DNA from: Bacteroidaceae bacterium
Lineage (GTDB): Bacteria; Bacteroidota; Bacteroidia; Bacteroidales; Bacteroidaceae
Reading direction: 5' to 3'
Length of the DNA stretch: 58,511 nucleotides
Assembly (NCBI GenBank): GCA_017428785.1
Contig: JAFRQD010000053.1
Span: 1 to 58,511 of the forward strand
Part shown: positions 7,079 to 53,420 of the stretch, one piece after another
Numbering within the stretch: the stretch's first letter is position 1
Layout: each line of letters opens with the position of its first letter
Made by a program: the position numbers and the translations under genes
Notes under the pieces: generated by a model
Seen by the model: only the letters and a program-made list of their open reading frames with translations
What the model was told of the DNA's origin: nothing
Databases searched by the model: none

Positions 7079-9460
7079 TTAGGGAGTCTTTACCTTTTTC
7101 TTGCCTTGTTCAATGATAATACCGCGAACCTTATCCGATGCCTTGCGACCATCGAGGGTGTACCAGGCATCTCTGTTGTCCATTGTCTGTTGACTTCGTC
7201 GAGCTAAAGCTTGACCGTTGTCTGTCAGCTCGATGCCGGTCGGGTCGTCCCAGTCGCTCATCTGCACATTGTCGATGTTGACACGCTTGTTGCCTGTATT
7301 CTCGCTCTCGAACTTGAGGCGGATATTGCCCTCTCTGTTAATCTTGTAGCCGTAGCGTTGCATCGTCCCGATAGAAAGCCCCGAGACAATCTTCATCCAA
7401 GTCTGTCCACCGTCAATGCTGTAGCTGACCGACATCTTCACGCCTGTGTCCTTGCCGTAGCTGCCGGCATAGAACCAAAGGCTGTCGCAGCCGTTCACCT
7501 TGTCTGTAGTCATCATGACATAGGCCGGCGTAGTGATTTCCGAGCCAGTCTTGACATAGCCCTTCATGCGGACGCATTTCTTGTCGAGCGCATTGTCGTC
7601 GGCTGCAAGCAGTGCGTTGCTCATCTCCCAAGTGGCAGCAGAGCAAGTGACTTCGGCAGCGGCGTATGCTCCCTTGCTTCCTGCCTCGAAGTCCTCGAAG
7701 AAGGACTTTGTGGCATCAACACTGCAGTTGACTGAGATAACTTTGTCGTCCAGTCCTTCCGTGCTGACAATGACTTCGCCTGCATAGTCGCCTTCCTCGA
7801 AGGCACCGCTGAAGCGTACAAGGAATGTGGGATTCGTGCCGGTAAGCGTAAGCTGCTGCGACCACAATTCGCCGTCGGTGCTTAGTTCGAACGGCGCGTT
7901 TGTGCTGACTTCGGTCACATACTTAGGCACAGCCATTGCCGTAACGGATACTTGTGTCGGGGCACTCGGCTTGCCTGGTGTTGCAGTGAAGGCGATGTCT
8001 TCCAGGCTGACAGAGAATACAGGAGCCATATCCGGCATCTGAACCATCACCTCGTTGCTGCCCACAATCTCTTCGCCGTTCTCGATGATGCTTACCTTAT
8101 AATAATATGTAGTGCTTGCGGCAACGCTCTTCACCTGATAGGTTGTGTCCGTTGTGGTGTATGTGCCGAAAGGTTTTGTCTGCCCCTGAGCATCCTTTGT
8201 ATAGACATTGAGCGTATAGGTTGCGTCGGGCTCGTAGTTCATCCAATTGGCATTGAAGCGTCGGCTGCTGACGGCACAGACGATGTCGGTTGCCGGATAG
8301 GCAGGAATGCCGTCCACAAAGGTAATCGACAAAGGTGTCTGCTGCACATAGCCGCTGCCTTCGAGGGAAAGCATTGTGGTATATGTGCCACCGTCTGAAG
8401 GGTGAACAGATACGCTTACATCTGTGCCTTCATTGATTTCGTTGGCAGAGAGGGTTGTCTTGGCGAGGGAAAAGTCCTCGCCCACAACGGCAAGCGTTGC
8501 GCCTTCGGCCATGCCTCTGCCTCGCACTTGCACCTTTGCAGAGAAGGGACGCGAGAGGGGCTGCAGTCCGAAGTCTATCTCTTCGCTTGCCGCAGGCACG
8601 AATATCTCCGCCCCATGCTCCTCTGTGCAGTAGAATTGTGCGTCGGCCTTGTCTCCCCAGATGTATTGGCATAGTTCGGGATAATCGACAAACGGGTTCC
8701 TGTTGCCTTGAATGCTGAAGATGGCTTCGCATCGTTCCTGCTCAATCTCGTCGATGGGGTCGGCTTCTGCCCATTCGAGCATGAGGTTATAGACCCACGG
8801 CCGCATCAGCAGAGGGCTATGGGGGTCAACGGTTAGCAGGCCTTCTGTGGTCGTCCATAGCGAGGTCATGTGGCTGTAGCATGTCGCCATATAGAAATAG
8901 GTACGCGCAAAGTCGCCTTTCCATTGGTCGGCAGGCTCCCAAGCTGTGATGAGGCTGTCGGCACGATAGCTGCTACTCTTGCCCACCTTTGTGACGCCGT
9001 TGGAGTAGGCGACTGTGCCGTCCACGACACCGATGGGGTTGTTGCTCTTGCGGCCATTGGCTGTGGCATCGGCAGGGTAGAGGTTGAAGAGGTCTTGGTA
9101 GGCATTGTTCCTCTCGTGGCCCCACCAGCTGTTTGCCCAGATGTGCTCGATGTTCATGCCGGACACGGCTGTCATGTCGGGGTTGAGATAGCGAACGGTG
9201 TTGCTGTAGCGGTCGCGCACCTGCATGTCTTCCATCTGGTCTGTTTGCCAGAAGCCGCTCCAGGTCTTTCCTGCGCCTCCTCCATAATTGAGAACTTGCT
9301 CGGGTTGTATGAGGTCGTGCAGCGCCGCCTTGAGTTGTGTGCCACGCAGCCCTTCTGCTTTGCGATAGTATTGCTCTTGAGCCAATGCCATTGACCATTG
9401 CCCATTGACCATTGCCCATCCCACAAAGACCAGGAGCAGGAAAAGAAACCTCGACCTCAT
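7079..9460 (-). CDS. Secreted endonuclease I family protein with FN3-like and jelly-roll domains
   Basis: 793 residues. After a signal peptide (to about residue 28), residues 30-270 form an endonuclease I (EndA-like, beta-beta-alpha-metal) domain with GMNIEHIWANSWWG, DLFNLYPADATANGRKSNNP and GNRNPFVDYPELCQYIWGD. Ig-like segments, a fibronectin III-like segment (about 395-475), a carbohydrate-binding-like jelly roll (about 590-745) and a C-terminal tail VRGIIIEQGKKKVKTP follow. It probably degrades extracellular DNA, giving access to nucleotides or phosphate. Residues 16-25 of the signal peptide (AMVNGQWSMA) are encoded by a CCATTGACCATTG-type repeat, so the start deserves checking. It lies 54 bp after a second family member. 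Confidence 0.85.
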   Translation of the reverse strand: MRSRFLFLLLVFVGWAMVNGQWSMALAQEQYYRKAEGLRGTQLKAALHDLIQPEQVLNYGGGAGKTWSGFWQTDQMEDMQVRDRYSNTVRYLNPDMTAVSGMNIEHIWANSWWGHERNNAYQDLFNLYPADATANGRKSNNPIGVVDGTVAYSNGVTKVGKSSSYRADSLITAWEPADQWKGDFARTYFYMATCYSHMTSLWTTTEGLLTVDPHSPLLMRPWVYNLMLEWAEADPIDEIEQERCEAIFSIQGNRNPFVDYPELCQYIWGDKADAQFYCTEEHGAEIFVPAASEEIDFGLQPLSRPFSAKVQVRGRGMAEGATLAVVGEDFSLAKTTLSANEINEGTDVSVSVHPSDGGTYTTMLSLEGSGYVQQTPLSITFVDGIPAYPATDIVCAVSSRRFNANWMNYEPDATYTLNVYTKDAQGQTKPFGTYTTTDTTYQVKSVAASTTYYYKVSIIENGEEIVGSNEVMVQMPDMAPVFSVSLEDIAFTATPGKPSAPTQVSVTAMAVPKYVTEVSTNAPFELSTDGELWSQQLTLTGTNPTFLVRFSGAFEEGDYAGEVIVSTEGLDDKVISVNCSVDATKSFFEDFEAGSKGAYAAAEVTCSAATWEMSNALLAADDNALDKKCVRMKGYVKTGSEITTPAYVMMTTDKVNGCDSLWFYAGSYGKDTGVKMSVSYSIDGGQTWMKIVSGLSIGTMQRYGYKINREGNIRLKFESENTGNKRVNIDNVQMSDWDDPTGIELTDNGQALARRSQQTMDNRDAWYTLDGRKASDKVRGIIIEQGKKKVKTP
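7173..7193 (-). repeat. GACAATGGACAACAG-type simple repeat inside the endonuclease gene
   Basis: The coding strand reads TCAACAGACAATGGACAACAG, giving residues SQQTMDNRD between the jelly-roll domain and the C-terminal tail. The same word type is duplicated in the phosphohexomutase gene at 33485-33512. Confidence 0.45.
9387..9419 (-). repeat. CCATTGACCATTG simple repeat inside a signal peptide
   Basis: Two imperfect copies of a 16-17 base unit (GCCATTGACCATTGCC) lie within the first 25 codons of the endonuclease gene. A near-identical repeat stands in the non-coding leader of the symporter gene at 52546-52576. Confidence 0.7.
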
Positions 9461-9514: not shown

Positions 9515-11035
9515 CTATCGTTGCAGTATCTTCTTTCCGTTTCTGATGACGAGGCCCTTCGTGTCATGAGGAACCCTGCGGCCCATCATGTCGAAGGTGA
9601 CATCAGTGTATTCTGAAAAGTCCGAGTAATCCGATTGTTCTGCCATGATTGGCAGGGCATCGGGCATTTCGCGGGCTGTCACCTTGACATCCTTTATCTC
9701 CCAGCAATAGCAGTTGGAGCTGTTGCTTATGTAGCGGAAGGCAATCGTCACATTGCTCATCCCACAGCATTCTGCCAGGCTTATGTCGCCGGAGGAGACG
9801 AAGTCGGTGAAGCCTCCGCTTGACTTAAGTGGCGGGAAAGTGGCATCGAGCTTGTGCCATGTGGCATCTTCGGGAACGCCATCATAGTTGTAGCTGACCA
9901 GGACTTGGAAGTAGGTGTCCTTCACAGGAACTGTCTTGTTGTAGCCAGTGGCATGCTGGAAGCTCAGCACGGCGCCTTCCATCATCGAGAGGTCGAGGTT
10001 GACCATCAAGTATTCGTCGGCAGTCTTGCCAGTGATGTTATAGGCATTGGCTACGGCGCCATAGCTGGAACTGCTGGTCCATACTTCGCCCTCGCAGCCT
10101 TCATAAGTGCGGACGAAGAAGGGGTTGAGTCCTGATGTCATCGAGCTGTTAACAAGAGTGGCGAAGTCAGGCGTATCGTGGCCGCTCTGGCCGCCGCCAC
10201 TGGATGTGCCGTCGATGCTGAAGGCATAGTCCACGCTGTCGCCCCAGATGTATTCAGCAAGGTTGGGGAAGTCCACGAACGGATTGCGGTTGCCCTGTTC
10301 TCCGTAGGCGCGTTCGTTGCGCGTCACTTCCCATTCGCAGACAGGGTCGTTCTTGCTCCATCGCAGGAGCATGGGCAATATGTCTTCCTTTAGTGTAGGA
10401 TAGTCCTCTTTGCGGAACGATACATTAACATCGCTTCGGTTCTGCCAGTTGACATCGGGATAGCAGGTGGCCACATAGAAGAAGATTCTTGCAAAGTCTC
10501 CCTTATACTCGTCGCAAGGCTCGAACACGCGGTCACCATTTGCGTCAGTACCCGTCTTCATGCGAGGATTGGAATATGATACTGTGCCTTTCACCTCGCC
10601 TAATGGATAGTTACCTTTTTGATTATTTGCTTTAGCATCGGACGGGATGACCTGGATGAGGTCGTTGCCAACAGGAACACCTGTTCCGCCTGTCCACCAG
10701 CTTTGGGGTGCCACATGCTCTTTGTTCATACCGCTGACGGCAGTACCATCACCGTTGAAGTAATACACATTGTTGCTGTAATAGTCCATCACCTGGTGAC
10801 GACCTTGTGAATTTGTGGCAGGCAGATAATCCACATTCTCGTAAGATGCCCATAGGTTGCCGTAACCTAATTCCGTATGGTTTGAAATGATGCTATACAT
10901 CGCCGCCTTCAGGGCAGCCTTCTTCTTGCCGTCGGCGTTGTTGTAATAACCTTTGGGGATGTCTGCCCACGCCTGCTGGAGGGACCAAAGGGTGAATAGC
11001 TGAATGAAGAGTAATAGAGTAGTATGTTGTTTCAT
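9515..11035 (-). CDS. Secreted endonuclease I family protein
   Basis: 506 residues with a signal peptide ending near WAD (residue 25). Residues 28-270 carry GMNKEHVAPQSWW, DLIQVIPSDAKANNQKGNYP and GNRNPFVDFPNLAEYIWGD, the same endonuclease I core as the next gene. A jelly-roll-like domain (about 280-470) and a tail TKGLVIRNGKKILQR follow. The two genes appear to be a tandem duplication with different accessory domains. Its promoter is at 11064-11071, so this gene leads a possible operon with the second nuclease and truA. Confidence 0.87.
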   Translation of the reverse strand: MKQHTTLLLFIQLFTLWSLQQAWADIPKGYYNNADGKKKAALKAAMYSIISNHTELGYGNLWASYENVDYLPATNSQGRHQVMDYYSNNVYYFNGDGTAVSGMNKEHVAPQSWWTGGTGVPVGNDLIQVIPSDAKANNQKGNYPLGEVKGTVSYSNPRMKTGTDANGDRVFEPCDEYKGDFARIFFYVATCYPDVNWQNRSDVNVSFRKEDYPTLKEDILPMLLRWSKNDPVCEWEVTRNERAYGEQGNRNPFVDFPNLAEYIWGDSVDYAFSIDGTSSGGGQSGHDTPDFATLVNSSMTSGLNPFFVRTYEGCEGEVWTSSSSYGAVANAYNITGKTADEYLMVNLDLSMMEGAVLSFQHATGYNKTVPVKDTYFQVLVSYNYDGVPEDATWHKLDATFPPLKSSGGFTDFVSSGDISLAECCGMSNVTIAFRYISNSSNCYCWEIKDVKVTAREMPDALPIMAEQSDYSDFSEYTDVTFDMMGRRVPHDTKGLVIRNGKKILQR

Positions 11036-11175: not shown

Positions 11176-11530
11176 TTTGTAAAGATTCTTCCGGACGAGT
11201 CGTTCGCAGACGGCTTGTTTTTGTTCCTGTGGCACTTTTCTACCCTGAACGGAAAATAGGGGCTTAAAACGCGTTTCCCTTTGAAATCGGCGGTTTGCGA
11301 AGAGGTGTTTTGAAGGAGAAAGCAAAGAAAGTACAAATGCCACGATGGATGTTGCAAAACGGAGCGTGCTTTTTGCGCAAATTCCGCGTGGAGCGATGGC
11401 CAACTTCGCACGGGGTAATTCCAAACATCGCAGGCGGCGTTGGCAAACATCGCAGGCGGCGTTTGACTTCTTCGCCTGTGGCATCTCCTGATTCCCCATT
11501 TTCAGGCACTTTTTTTGTAAAGGATTTTCC
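11176..11530 (+). repeat. Intergenic array element, copy A (full, forward)
   Basis: Begins TTTGTAAAGATTCTTCC, ends TTTGTAAAGGATTTTCC in the same direction. In between are GACGGCTTGTTTTTGTT, the core GTGGCACTTTTCTACCC (11229-11245), GGCTTAAA, CGGTTTGCGA, GCAAAGAAAGT (11321-11331) and an array of four 21-23 bp units at 11379-11466. The last two units are 22 bp each and identical at 20 of 22 bases. The block order matches copies B and C. It lies between divergent genes; no credible protein is encoded. Confidence 0.75.
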
Positions 11531-11546
11531 TAAAAATAGGCGGAGT

Positions 11547-11712
11547 GGCTTACCCCACCTCGGCCTTCGACCACTTGCCTCCGTCGAGCAGAGCACTGCT
11601 CTCCCCTCTCTCGGGGACAGAGCCACATTTAGTGGCTCCTCTAAAGCCCACTCGTTCGCCCTTTAGGGGCGGAGAGTAGCTCCCCTCTTCTTAAGTGGGC
11701 GAAGGGCTACAT
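11547..11712. repeat. G-rich palindromic repeat region next to copy A
   Basis: Contains CCCCACCTCGGCCTTCG, a CTCCGTCGAGCAGAGC segment shared with 16688-16706 and 53381-53395, and several short CCCCT/AGGGG inverted repeats. It follows the array end of copy A, the same relative place this family takes beside copies B and C. Confidence 0.6.
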
Positions 11713-16468: not shown

Positions 16469-16475
16469 ATAGCGT

Positions 16476-16830
16476 CTCCCTTAGGGGAGGGAGTTGAGGT
16501 GGCAGGGCTCTTTGCTCCTCCTTGTATGTGCTCTCAGCTCCTCCTGATAAGGGAAAATGGCACCAAGACTCCCCTCCCGTTTGAGGGGGAAGGGTAGGGG
16601 TGGGGTAGATAGAATGGTTTGCTTCCAATGACATGAATGTGGAAGCGCCGTTCTTTTACCCCACCCCTTGTTTTGTTTTGCCCCCTGCCCTCCGTCGAGC
16701 GGAGCTCTCCCCAATTGCTCCGCTGCTGACGGGCAATTGCTCTTCAAGGAACGGGAGGATGGGATGCCTCCTTTCTTCGGCTAAAGCCTCTCGCGCAGGC
16801 GGAACAGGCCGGATTTACCGGACAGCAATA
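16476..16830. repeat. G-rich palindromic repeat region next to copy B
   Basis: Starts with CTCCCTTAGGGGAGGGAG just after htpG and includes GGGAAGGGTAGGGGTGGGG (from about 16591). A block at about 16672-16757, read in reverse, matches 53329-53418 closely, including AGCAGCGGAGCAATTGGGG and GCTCGACGGA. Short inverted CCCCTnnnAGGGG motifs could act as terminators for htpG. No gene was found. Confidence 0.65.
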
Positions 16831-16900: not shown

Positions 16901-17258
16901 ACAAAAAACTTTACAAAAATTGTCGCGAAAAATGAGGCGATTGGCATCAGCTTGTGCAGGAGAATCAAACGCCGCACGCGAAGTTGGTCAACGCCGCACG
17001 CGATGTTTGCAATTTCCCCACGCGGCGTCGACCAACCCCGCAGGCGAAATTCGGCAGAAAAGTGCGCCGTATTTAACAGTGTAAAGCAAGGAGTCTGTAC
17101 TTTCTTTGCTTGACGCTGGAAAATTCGTCCTCGCAAACCGCCTGCTGTAGGCGAAAACGCGATTTAAGCCCTTATTTTGCGTTTAGGGTAGCAAAGTGCC
17201 ACCCGACAAAAAACAAGCCGCCAGAAGGGGCATGCTTGCGAAAAATCTTTACAAAAAC
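16901..17258 (-). repeat. Intergenic array element, copy B (full, reverse)
   Basis: Read on the reverse strand it runs from TTTGTAAAGATTTTTCG to TTTGTAAAGTTTTTTGT. The blocks come in the same order as copy A: TTCTGGCGGCTTG, GGTGGCACTTTGCTACCC (complement of 17187-17204), GGCTTAAA, CAGGCGGTTTGCGA, GCAAAGAAAGTAC (complement of 17098-17110), then four 21-23 bp array units (16967-17055). It sits between htpG and the nadE promoter. Confidence 0.75.
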
Positions 17259-23116: not shown

Positions 23117-23134
23117 CTCCTATGCGGCAGATGC

Positions 23135-23292
23135 AAACGCCGCACGCGGGGATGCCAAACGCCGCACGCGGGGATTGCCAACGCCGCACGCGGAAATTGC
23201 CAACGCCGCACGTGGGGATTGCCATCGCCGCAGGCGGCGTTTTTCGTCCGTCTGTGTGATGTCGTTCAACAGCGCAAAAAATCTTTACAAAT
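23135..23292 (-). repeat. Array element, partial copy D (one end plus array)
   Basis: On the reverse strand it begins ATTTGTAAAGATTTTTT (23276-23292) and, without the GTGGCAC core, passes into the array at 23135-23243. On the + strand the units are 22, 23, 22, 22 and 19 bp: AAACGCCGCACGCGGGGATG and close variants, each centred on CCGCACGCGG, CCGCACGTGG or CCGCAGGCGG. This is the most regular array of the five. It fills the gap between the convergent glycosidase genes. Confidence 0.75.
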
Positions 23293-32822: not shown

Positions 32823-32862
32823 GCTTTCTTGAATAATTGCTGAATATCCACCAGAGAGCTTG

Positions 32863-32973
32863 AAAACGCCGCCTGCGGCGATTGCAAATTCCGCGTGCGG
32901 CGATGGGCATCCCCGCGTGCGGCGATGGGCATCCCCGCGTGCGGCGTTGGTCATCGCCGCACGCGGCGTTTGG
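32863..32973 (+). repeat. Array-only copy E of the 22-bp repeat
   Basis: Five units of 21-23 bp, including two nearly identical ones starting ATCCCCGCGTGCGGCG. Each is centred on CCGCnnGCGG (CCGCCTGCGG, CCGCGTGCGG, CCGCACGCGG). The last unit ends GCGGCGTTTGG, matching the terminal units of copies A, B and D. Neither the TTTGTAAA ends nor the GTGGCAC core is present. Confidence 0.75.
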
Positions 32974-33001
32974 AAGCCCCTCACGCAGGCTTGAAAAGTA
33001 A

Positions 33002-36645: not shown

Positions 36646-36728
36646 CGAAATATTGCGATAACTGCCAAATAATAAGAGGAGAAATCGCGTTTGCAGTCGT
36701 CGAGGCAGACTTGGCAAGGAATGTTTTC

Positions 36729-36792
36729 AAAGATAACGTGCTTAGTTTGCAAACTTAACGTGCTTAGTTTGGCATTTTAGCGTGTTATCTTT
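36729..36792. repeat. Inverted repeat with internal CGTGCTTAGTT direct repeats
   Basis: AAAGATAAC (36729-36737) and GTTATCTTT (36784-36792) form perfect 9-bp outer arms. Inside, AACGTGCTTAGTTTG is repeated at 36735-36749 and 36757-36771, and GTTTGCAAAC is palindromic. The right arm overlaps the last codons and TAA of the lipoprotein gene. CGTGCTTAGTT also occurs in the hairpin after gdhA (20865-20875). Confidence 0.6.
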
Positions 36793-52773: not shown

Positions 52774-53154
52774 TTTTGTAAACATTTTTCCTGCCCCGAC
52801 GCTTTCTGGCGCATTATTTTTGTCTCGGTGGCACTTTCCTACCCTGGACGCGAGAAATGCGCTTAAATCAAATTTCCTGTGACAATCAATTGGTTACAAA
52901 AGGATATTTTGAGCCACAAAGCAAAGAAAGTGTTGGCCTGACACAAGCAGCTGTTAAATTCCGCACGAGTTTTCCCCAATTTCCACGTGTGGCATTAGGC
53001 AATTTCACACAAGGTAATTGCAAACTCCACGTGTGATGTTGCCCAACTCCACGTGTGATGTTGCCCAACTCCACGTGTGGCGTTGCCCGATGCCCCACGC
53101 CCCGACGCCAAATATCCCTTATTCTGCTGCATCTTTTTGTAAGAATATTTCCTG
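52774..53154 (+). repeat. Intergenic array element, copy C (full, forward, diverged)
   Basis: Begins TTTTGTAAACATTTTTCC and ends TTTTTGTAAGAATATTTCC. It has TTTCTGGCGCATTATTTTTG, the core GGTGGCACTTTCCTACCC (52827-52844), GCTTAAA and GCAAAGAAAGT (52921-52931), then an array at about 52956-53090. Array cores read CCACGTGTGG instead of CCGCGTGCGG, and several units end GATGTTGCCCAACT. It lies between divergent genes. Confidence 0.75.
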
Positions 53155-53199: not shown

Positions 53200-53420
53200 T
53201 TAACTCCCCTCCCATTCCATGAAAGGGAGGGGCAGGGGTGGGGAAGGAATGAAGAAATAGTCACCCCACCTCGGCCTTCGGCCACTCCTCCCCTTAAAGG
53301 GGCGGAGAGCACAGCATCCCAACTTCCCTCCCATTCCTTGAAGGACATTGCCCGTTAGCAGCGGAGCAATTGGGGAGAGCTCTGCTCGACGGATGGCAAG
53401 GGGCAGGGGTGGGGTAACAA
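53200..53420. repeat. G-rich palindromic repeat cluster next to copy C
   Basis: Three family members in a row: CTCCCCTCCCATTCCATGAA with GGGAGGGGCAGGGGTGGGG (53204-53240), a CCCCACCTCGGCCTTCGGCC block (53264-53312), and 53320-53418, which matches the reverse of 16672-16757. No gene was found. Confidence 0.65.

Follow-up and report, generated by a model that had tools for sequence, protein, structure and literature searches.

A repeated, apparently intergenic element of nearly fixed length, carrying arrays of 22-bp units, in a Bacteroidaceae genome and its relatives

The window, the whole stretch of 58,511 nt analysed here, holds three copies of an apparently intergenic element whose flanking genes are ordinary. 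Copy A (11176..11530, plus strand) begins with TTTGTAAAGATTCTTCC at 11176 and closes with TTTTTGTAAAGGATTTTCC ending at 11530, copy B (16901..17255, minus strand) occupies the interval between htpG and nadE, and copy C is found at 52775..53152 (plus strand). All three have the ends designated type I below. From the start of the 5' motif to the start of the 3' motif, copies A and B span 338 bp and copy C, with one additional 22-bp unit, spans 361 bp. The original prediction had placed three copies at these sites, with blocks in a common order, an array of about 22-bp units, direct rather than inverted ends and no protein in common. With the ends refined to the positions above, direct inspection bears out the order of the blocks, the arrays have a period of 22 bp and the end motifs are direct. 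ORFs of 100–134 aa overlap the copies; a conserved reading frame is absent, as at most six of 37 aligned copies are free of stops in any of the six frames.

Copy B may be considered in terms of six parts, all on the minus strand. The 5' end motif TTTGTAAAGATTTTTCG (17239..17255) is followed at 53 bp from the 5' end by the core GTGGCACTTTGCTACCC (17186..17202), and a GCTTAAA block (17163..17169) and a GCAAAGAAAGT block (17099..17109) follow at 33 and 93 bp from the core start, respectively. The 22-bp array, with approximate limits set by eye, covers 16940..17050 and the 3' end motif TTTTTGTAAAGTTTTTTGT, in direct orientation, covers 16901..16919. In copies A and C, both on the plus strand, the cores lie at 11229..11245 and 52828..52844, and the period-22 arrays at 11396..11467 and 53004..53104. 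The window has three occurrences of the core, for an expectation of 0.33, and none of 100 shuffles reaches this number; the core combined with GCTTARA was seen three times against 0.00 expected (100 shuffles). The GCAAAGAAAGT block alone was not significant in the window (four matches at one mismatch against 1.42 expected; 7 of 100 shuffles reach four).

Three further arrays of 22-bp units in the window have no core. The first (23121..23248, minus strand) has a type I end motif, ATTTGTAAAGATTTTTT, alongside at approximately 23276–23292, the second lies at 32858..32986 (plus strand), and the third (36721..36788, strand not assigned) consists of a divergent unit, AACTTAACGTGCTTAGTT. The latter is unlike the common unit of this genome and similar to arrays in the relatives G008 and G005. 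G-rich dispersed repeats (CTCCCCTCCCATTCC... and CCCCACCTCGGCCTTCG...) adjoin all three copies of the element (11539–11690, 16470–16810 and 53200–53330), and copy A has two adjacent Endonuclease I-domain genes as neighbours (7079–9460 and 9515–11035, minus strand).

The element is a family of about 50 copies in the genome from which the window derives (G000; 2.98 Mb in 71 contigs, 84% complete). Allowing up to two mismatches, the core GTGGCACTTTNCTACCC was found there at 48 places, of which 27 are exact, and the reversed-pattern control was found once. A sequence-only profile built from 41 copies matched 21 of 101 genomes of the genus at E ≤ 0.01 and 16 of 101 strongly (best E < 1e-14), G000 being included in both counts and at most 39 candidates being scored per genome; the other five of the 21 had weak matches (G008, G084, G097, G112 and G114). 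Conservation of the core is biased upward in these figures, since both the model and the G000 set were drawn from core matches. Among 295 genomes of the order, scored with at most 13 candidates each, G000 was the sole match and the 294 others had none at E ≤ 0.001. A pattern scan of named genomes returned 57 stretches, 49 of which come from entries labelled Bacteroidaceae, Prevotellaceae or Bacteroidales, and the titles of many of these entries name a ruminant; the remaining eight belong to unrelated groups and none has a profile match. None of the virus contigs scanned carried the pattern.

With NadE as a yardstick, 15 genomes besides G000 are at least approximately 86% identical, of which 12 have strong element matches and three weak ones (G112, G008 and G114). 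Below this level only G012 (81%) has a strong match, and G024 and G096 have strong matches and are among the nine genomes that gave no NadE match. The element is thus found mostly in one clade, with near-loss in some members. The original prediction had named a lack of further copies here or in relatives as its refutation, and had held the element to be undescribed. Further copies are plentiful by the counts above, Rfam gave no matches, and a search of one open-access literature library found no description. The 48 core places, a second end type, the near-constant length and the three core-less arrays of the window go beyond that prediction.

Two end types were recognized among 125 unique genome-labelled copies, 88 being classed as type I and 37 as type II. 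Type I copies start with TTTGTAAAnATTTTTCC and end with a direct TTTTTGTAAAGATTTTT; type II copies start with TGACAnTTTGnAAGC, have TTTTGCTTAC downstream, and end with GTGACAC.TTG.AAGC, which is also direct. Terminal inverted repeats were found in neither type. A copy entered the length counts if each of its two end motifs agreed at no fewer than 11 positions, a rule that excluded 10 type I copies out of 88 and 16 type II copies out of 37. In a shuffling control, which covered type I, the 3' motif reached this threshold in 13 of 125 cases. On this basis, 70 of 78 type I copies with both ends, out of 88 with full flanks, measure 337–339 bp, the remainder falling at 325–327, 350–351 and 360–361 bp. 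The distance from the 5' end to the core is 53 bp in 69 of 78 and 52 bp in nine of 78, and GCTTAAA stands 33 bp from the core in 76 of 78. The 21 type II copies with both ends fall into classes of 371–373, 394–397, 403–406, 416–418 and 426 bp.

This spacing is held in copies that have diverged considerably. The mean ungapped identity of 37 G000 copies is 0.63, and small insertions are almost absent among the aligned copies. The lengths, merged by hand into nine classes, share one phase at a period of 11 bp (R = 0.84, Rayleigh p ~0.002), a pattern that was noticed before being tested; the test covered 18 periods, with R = 0.74 at 11.5 and 0.39 at 10.5. Length steps of 22 bp follow from the gain or loss of units; steps of 11 bp do not, unless half-units are gained. 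The end motifs of one copy are no more similar to each other than to those of other copies. In a check for target-site duplications, the 10-bp flanks of 43 G000 copies did not resemble each other more when they came from one copy than when they came from two (p = 0.08).

The 3' half of the element is the 22-bp array, and its units have arms that vary among genomes. Arms of CGCGTGCGGCGTT are present in G000 and G075, with 470 half-site matches in G000 (control 0), and arms of AAGTACRYGTACTT occur in G088 at 522 sites within one mismatch (control 3); the arms are ATATTGCG in G034 and GAGGCGTGCCTC in G020. Dyad symmetry exceeded that of shuffled units in 20 of 43 arrays. Core-less arrays are present in G000, as four-unit elements of approximately 90 bp, and also in G034, G075, G112 and G008. 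In the scanned stretches, those of G075 and G112 having been partly picked near matches, 42 arrays had a period of 22 (five in the window, 11 in G034, two in G016, five in G112, six in G008 and 13 in G075), and three with a period of 21 or 24 look to be of low complexity. Arrays were found neither in 187 kb of G001 and G004 nor in 99 kb of G114.

Elsewhere in the genus, there are lineages whose palindromic tandem arrays repeat every 21, 23 or, most often, 24 bp. These were seen in a background sample of four genomes (L413–L432) that bear genes for a Y1 transposase and have no strong core matches: one array each of period 22, 21 and 23 in 90 kb of G101; one each of 22, 44 and 24 in 64 kb of G022; one of 22, two of 23 and six of 24 in 72 kb of G085; and one of 21 in 95 kb of G091. 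The array period seems to be lineage-specific. A rule of one motif per genome is too simple, because G034 has several array motifs and the simple array of the G000 type is also found in G075, G093 and G096, with rare occurrences in five further genomes (at most eight candidates scored per genome). In G093, the arrays of elements differ from the simple arrays.

In shared 8-mers, leaders track locus and type more and arrays track the genome more. Between type I and type II copies of one genome, leaders share 5.1 8-mers and arrays 9.75 (244 pairs); between type II copies of different genomes, orthologues included, the values are 19.5 and 4.3 (75 pairs). Orthologues, with G000–G075 left out, share 15.0 in the leader and 4.1 in the array (40 pairs), compared to 7.6 and 2.4 for other loci of different genomes. 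Pairs from the same genome, 1128 of 1405 of which are from G000, share 13.3 and 11.5, so that leaders carry a genome signal too (13.3 vs 7.6). A cruder comparison based on identity points in the same direction, with leader and array at 0.78 and 0.73 in the same genome and 0.80 and 0.69 in orthologues (shuffled baseline 0.50–0.51). Similarity at shared loci extends into the 80 bp flanking the element (0.65 and 0.64, vs 0.73 for the leader and a random baseline of 0.56).

From BLAST comparison of flanks, gene intervals that contain the element are common to up to five species, as in the case of L013/L159/L168/L172/L180 in G000, G034, G005, G035 and G013. In ten type I locus groups of two to five genomes each, 27 of 29 copies measure 337–339 bp and the others 327 and 351 bp; two groups (L052/L171 and L062/L056) and one member (L201) were joined by one flank only.

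Copy B is lineage-specific. It is absent from the interval in 19 of 29 relatives, those that keep htpG beside nadE, where 2 to 215 nt separate the last codon of htpG from the start of nadE (8 nt in G075, which has a 96% identical NadE); the core was found at one of the 30 loci, that of G000. The other ten relatives lack htpG beside nadE in the examined stretch; these include the element-rich G034, G035, G113, G076 and G093, as well as G112 with few matches, and for this reason the absence of copy B in those six says little. Since the G000 interval, approximately 1 kb in length, also holds other repeats, the boundaries of the insertion cannot be read. An empty site was also sought for two other copies; the flanks of L014 lie on different contigs in relatives and the outer flanks of L019 were not found there. 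Within nadE itself, the genes of G088, G020 and G109 (L350, L351 and L352) match in two pieces with an insert near residue 285 and no stops, the insert being inverted-repeat-like in G088 and G020 and AT-rich in G109; the match to G073 nadE is likewise split in two and contains one TAG.

With a probability of roughly 0.4, the copies may be read as a duplex-DNA platform for a putative protein, one that occasionally spreads and is kept at old sites. In favour of this are the rigid spacing of strongly diverged copies, its retention at shared loci (while the htpG–nadE gap of relatives varies between 2 and 215 nt), the common phase of the lengths at 11 bp, the even spread of gene orientations and the lack of a consensus RNA fold in type I cores. 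The element would comprise a leader (5' end motif, core, GCTTAAA and GCAAAGAAAGT), dyad-like units spaced at 22 bp and the end motif once more in direct orientation, and proteins bound in register along it could form one complex over approximately 340 bp. New copies would occasionally enter intergenic sites, as the presence and absence of copy B suggest, and several old copies, which hold their spacing across species at the examined loci, may be under selection there. Array units resemble one another more closely inside one genome than they do between genomes at a shared locus, a pattern that gene conversion or the copying of units might produce. Chromosome organisation and local regulation are candidate functions.

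Gene orientation bears on the second of these. The neighbours of 48 copies, counted by an ORF-based heuristic in which ORFs overlapping the element are passed over, are convergent in 15 cases, divergent in 11, tandem in 18 and incomplete in four; since no orientation is preferred, a promoter or terminator role for the 350-bp element is disfavoured. Core-less arrays gave 10 convergent, 18 tandem and two divergent settings of 30 in G000, with one more incomplete, and five convergent and three tandem of eight in G088. Together with a terminator-like hairpin at one array end, these counts make a side role in termination possible for the core-less arrays.

Several observations weigh against the platform reading, among them the dyad symmetry above shuffles in only 20 of 43 arrays, the likeness of flanking sequence at shared loci and the genome signal in leaders. 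A transposase that measures length would also fix the length of the element. It is doubtful that the helical turn constrains the arrays, since periods in other lineages are 21, 23 and, for the most part, 24 bp, and one protein with one specificity per genome is insufficient given the several motifs of G034 and the two kinds of array in G093. Three relatives with NadE 90–94% identical have weak core matches only; thus, the platform is dispensable. The other array periods, together with arrays near Y1 genes, weaken this reading and raise its mobile and RAYT-like rivals. An extension of it, for which the odds appear long, is a chromosome-organising system in which some 50 platforms of near-fixed length and probably hundreds of short arrays would nucleate protein filaments. 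The recognised sequence would be rewritten genome-wide in concert while the sites stay stationary, comparable to fast-evolving centromere-like DNA.

A non-autonomous mobile element is a serious rival, tentative but with real weight. The 338 bp would then consist of sites bound by a putative transposase or recombinase, with the length set by what that enzyme can mobilise. The 48 dispersed core places in G000, the restriction of copy B to G000 among genomes with htpG beside nadE, and the few or weak matches in some close relatives are consistent with this, as are the direct ends, since HUH/Y1-type transposition does not require inverted ones. Retention of blocks and spacing at loci common to up to five species argues against it, as do end motifs that are no more alike within than between copies and the absence of the pattern from virus contigs. 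No clean empty site with boundaries was obtained for copy B, L014 or L019.

A less likely though still serious rival is that a RAYT (Y1) transposase drives a REP/BIME-like system, in which the 350-bp element would be a specialised carrier of palindromic units. It would account for palindromic units by the hundreds, as in G088, and for their scarcity between divergent genes (2 of 30), and arrays of period 22 or 44 lie within approximately 1 kb of a Y1 gene at five of 20 Y1 loci (L253, L255, L256, L264 and L267), three of which belong to core-negative genomes, with one period-21 array near a Y1 gene at L254. Against this, among 12 genomes with at least eight core matches, which are 62–89% complete, four have strong Y1 matches (E < 1e-15) and three more (G076, G093 and G113) have partial, weaker ones; 13 genomes outside these 12 have strong matches, and G008 and G112 have arrays and no Y1 match. 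No 18-mer palindrome centred on CGTG or CACG was found at 17 Y1 loci, and a different repeat adjoins the four Y1 genes inspected (L258, L263, L267 and L264). This repeat is GCCCTGAAAGGGC ... CCCAGGGC..GCCCTGGG in G000, G088 and G013 and a related CCTGGGGCGATGCCCCAGG in G034 (L264), and such repeats are probably a REP-like family of their own.

The original prediction had left a structured RNA, a protein-binding site and a mobile unit as alternatives; the latter two keep support and the RNA has become the weakest. A many-copy non-coding RNA gene with the array as a row of hairpins is improbable, because the RNAalifold energy is zero for 53 type I cores (five odd ones omitted) and −4 kcal/mol for 11 type II cores, two-sided pair changes number 9 vs 9.3 in shuffles, slid structures covary nearly as well (0.143 at −1), small insertions that RNA loops tolerate are almost absent and Rfam has no match at the gathering threshold across the window, while relatedness of the sequences can produce the excess over shuffles seen in pairing (68.3% of cells vs 65.1%) and covariation (0.164 vs 0.114; 41 sequences, 0 of 500 shuffles as high for both). 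The arms flanking the type I core also pair better with their own partner (22.3 vs 20.8; 0 of 5000 permutations as high). Overall, the element looks more like a platform for a candidate DNA-binding protein than like an RNA.

Repeats scattered between bacterial genes are commonly taken for mobile elements in decay. In this family, length stays close to 338 bp despite strong divergence of the copies, several loci are retained across species and the sequence of the array tracks genome over locus. With these properties, two questions become testable: whether repeats of this kind serve the host, and how a DNA signal spread over many sites can change throughout a genome while the sites stay in place.

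Three known systems offer comparisons, each drawn from its published description. The BOX elements of Streptococcus pneumoniae have two end modules and tandem internal modules in many copies, are 67 to 637 bp in length and are predicted to fold when transcribed (PMC3049150). In layout, the present element is similarly modular, with tandem units between ends and many copies; unlike BOX, it varies little in length and lacks support for a fold. REP, BIME and REPIN sequences with RAYT are described as numerous intergenic palindromic units, regularly spaced and species-specific, and BIMEs are reported to bind proteins including gyrase (PMC2817692, PMC3733652, PMC6006769). Abundant, regularly spaced palindromic units characterise the genomes here as well; in contrast, they form part of a longer element that has a leader and ends of its own, and no GTAG/CGTC tag was seen by eye. 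A third system comes from Porphyromonas gingivalis, which is in the same order of bacteria as the source organism. Its BrickBuilt MITE is intergenic, with a leader, tandem 23-nt repeats and a tail in 19 copies, some at loci common to strains; it is described as having terminal inverted repeats like those of ISPg1/ISPg9, no spacer between repeats and a length of 84–991 nt (Klein et al. 2015, PMC4596501). By description, the two have in common a leader, tandem repeats of 22–23 bp and a tail, many copies and some shared loci, and they differ in that BrickBuilt has inverted ends and a wide range of lengths whereas the element described here has direct ends and a nearly fixed length.
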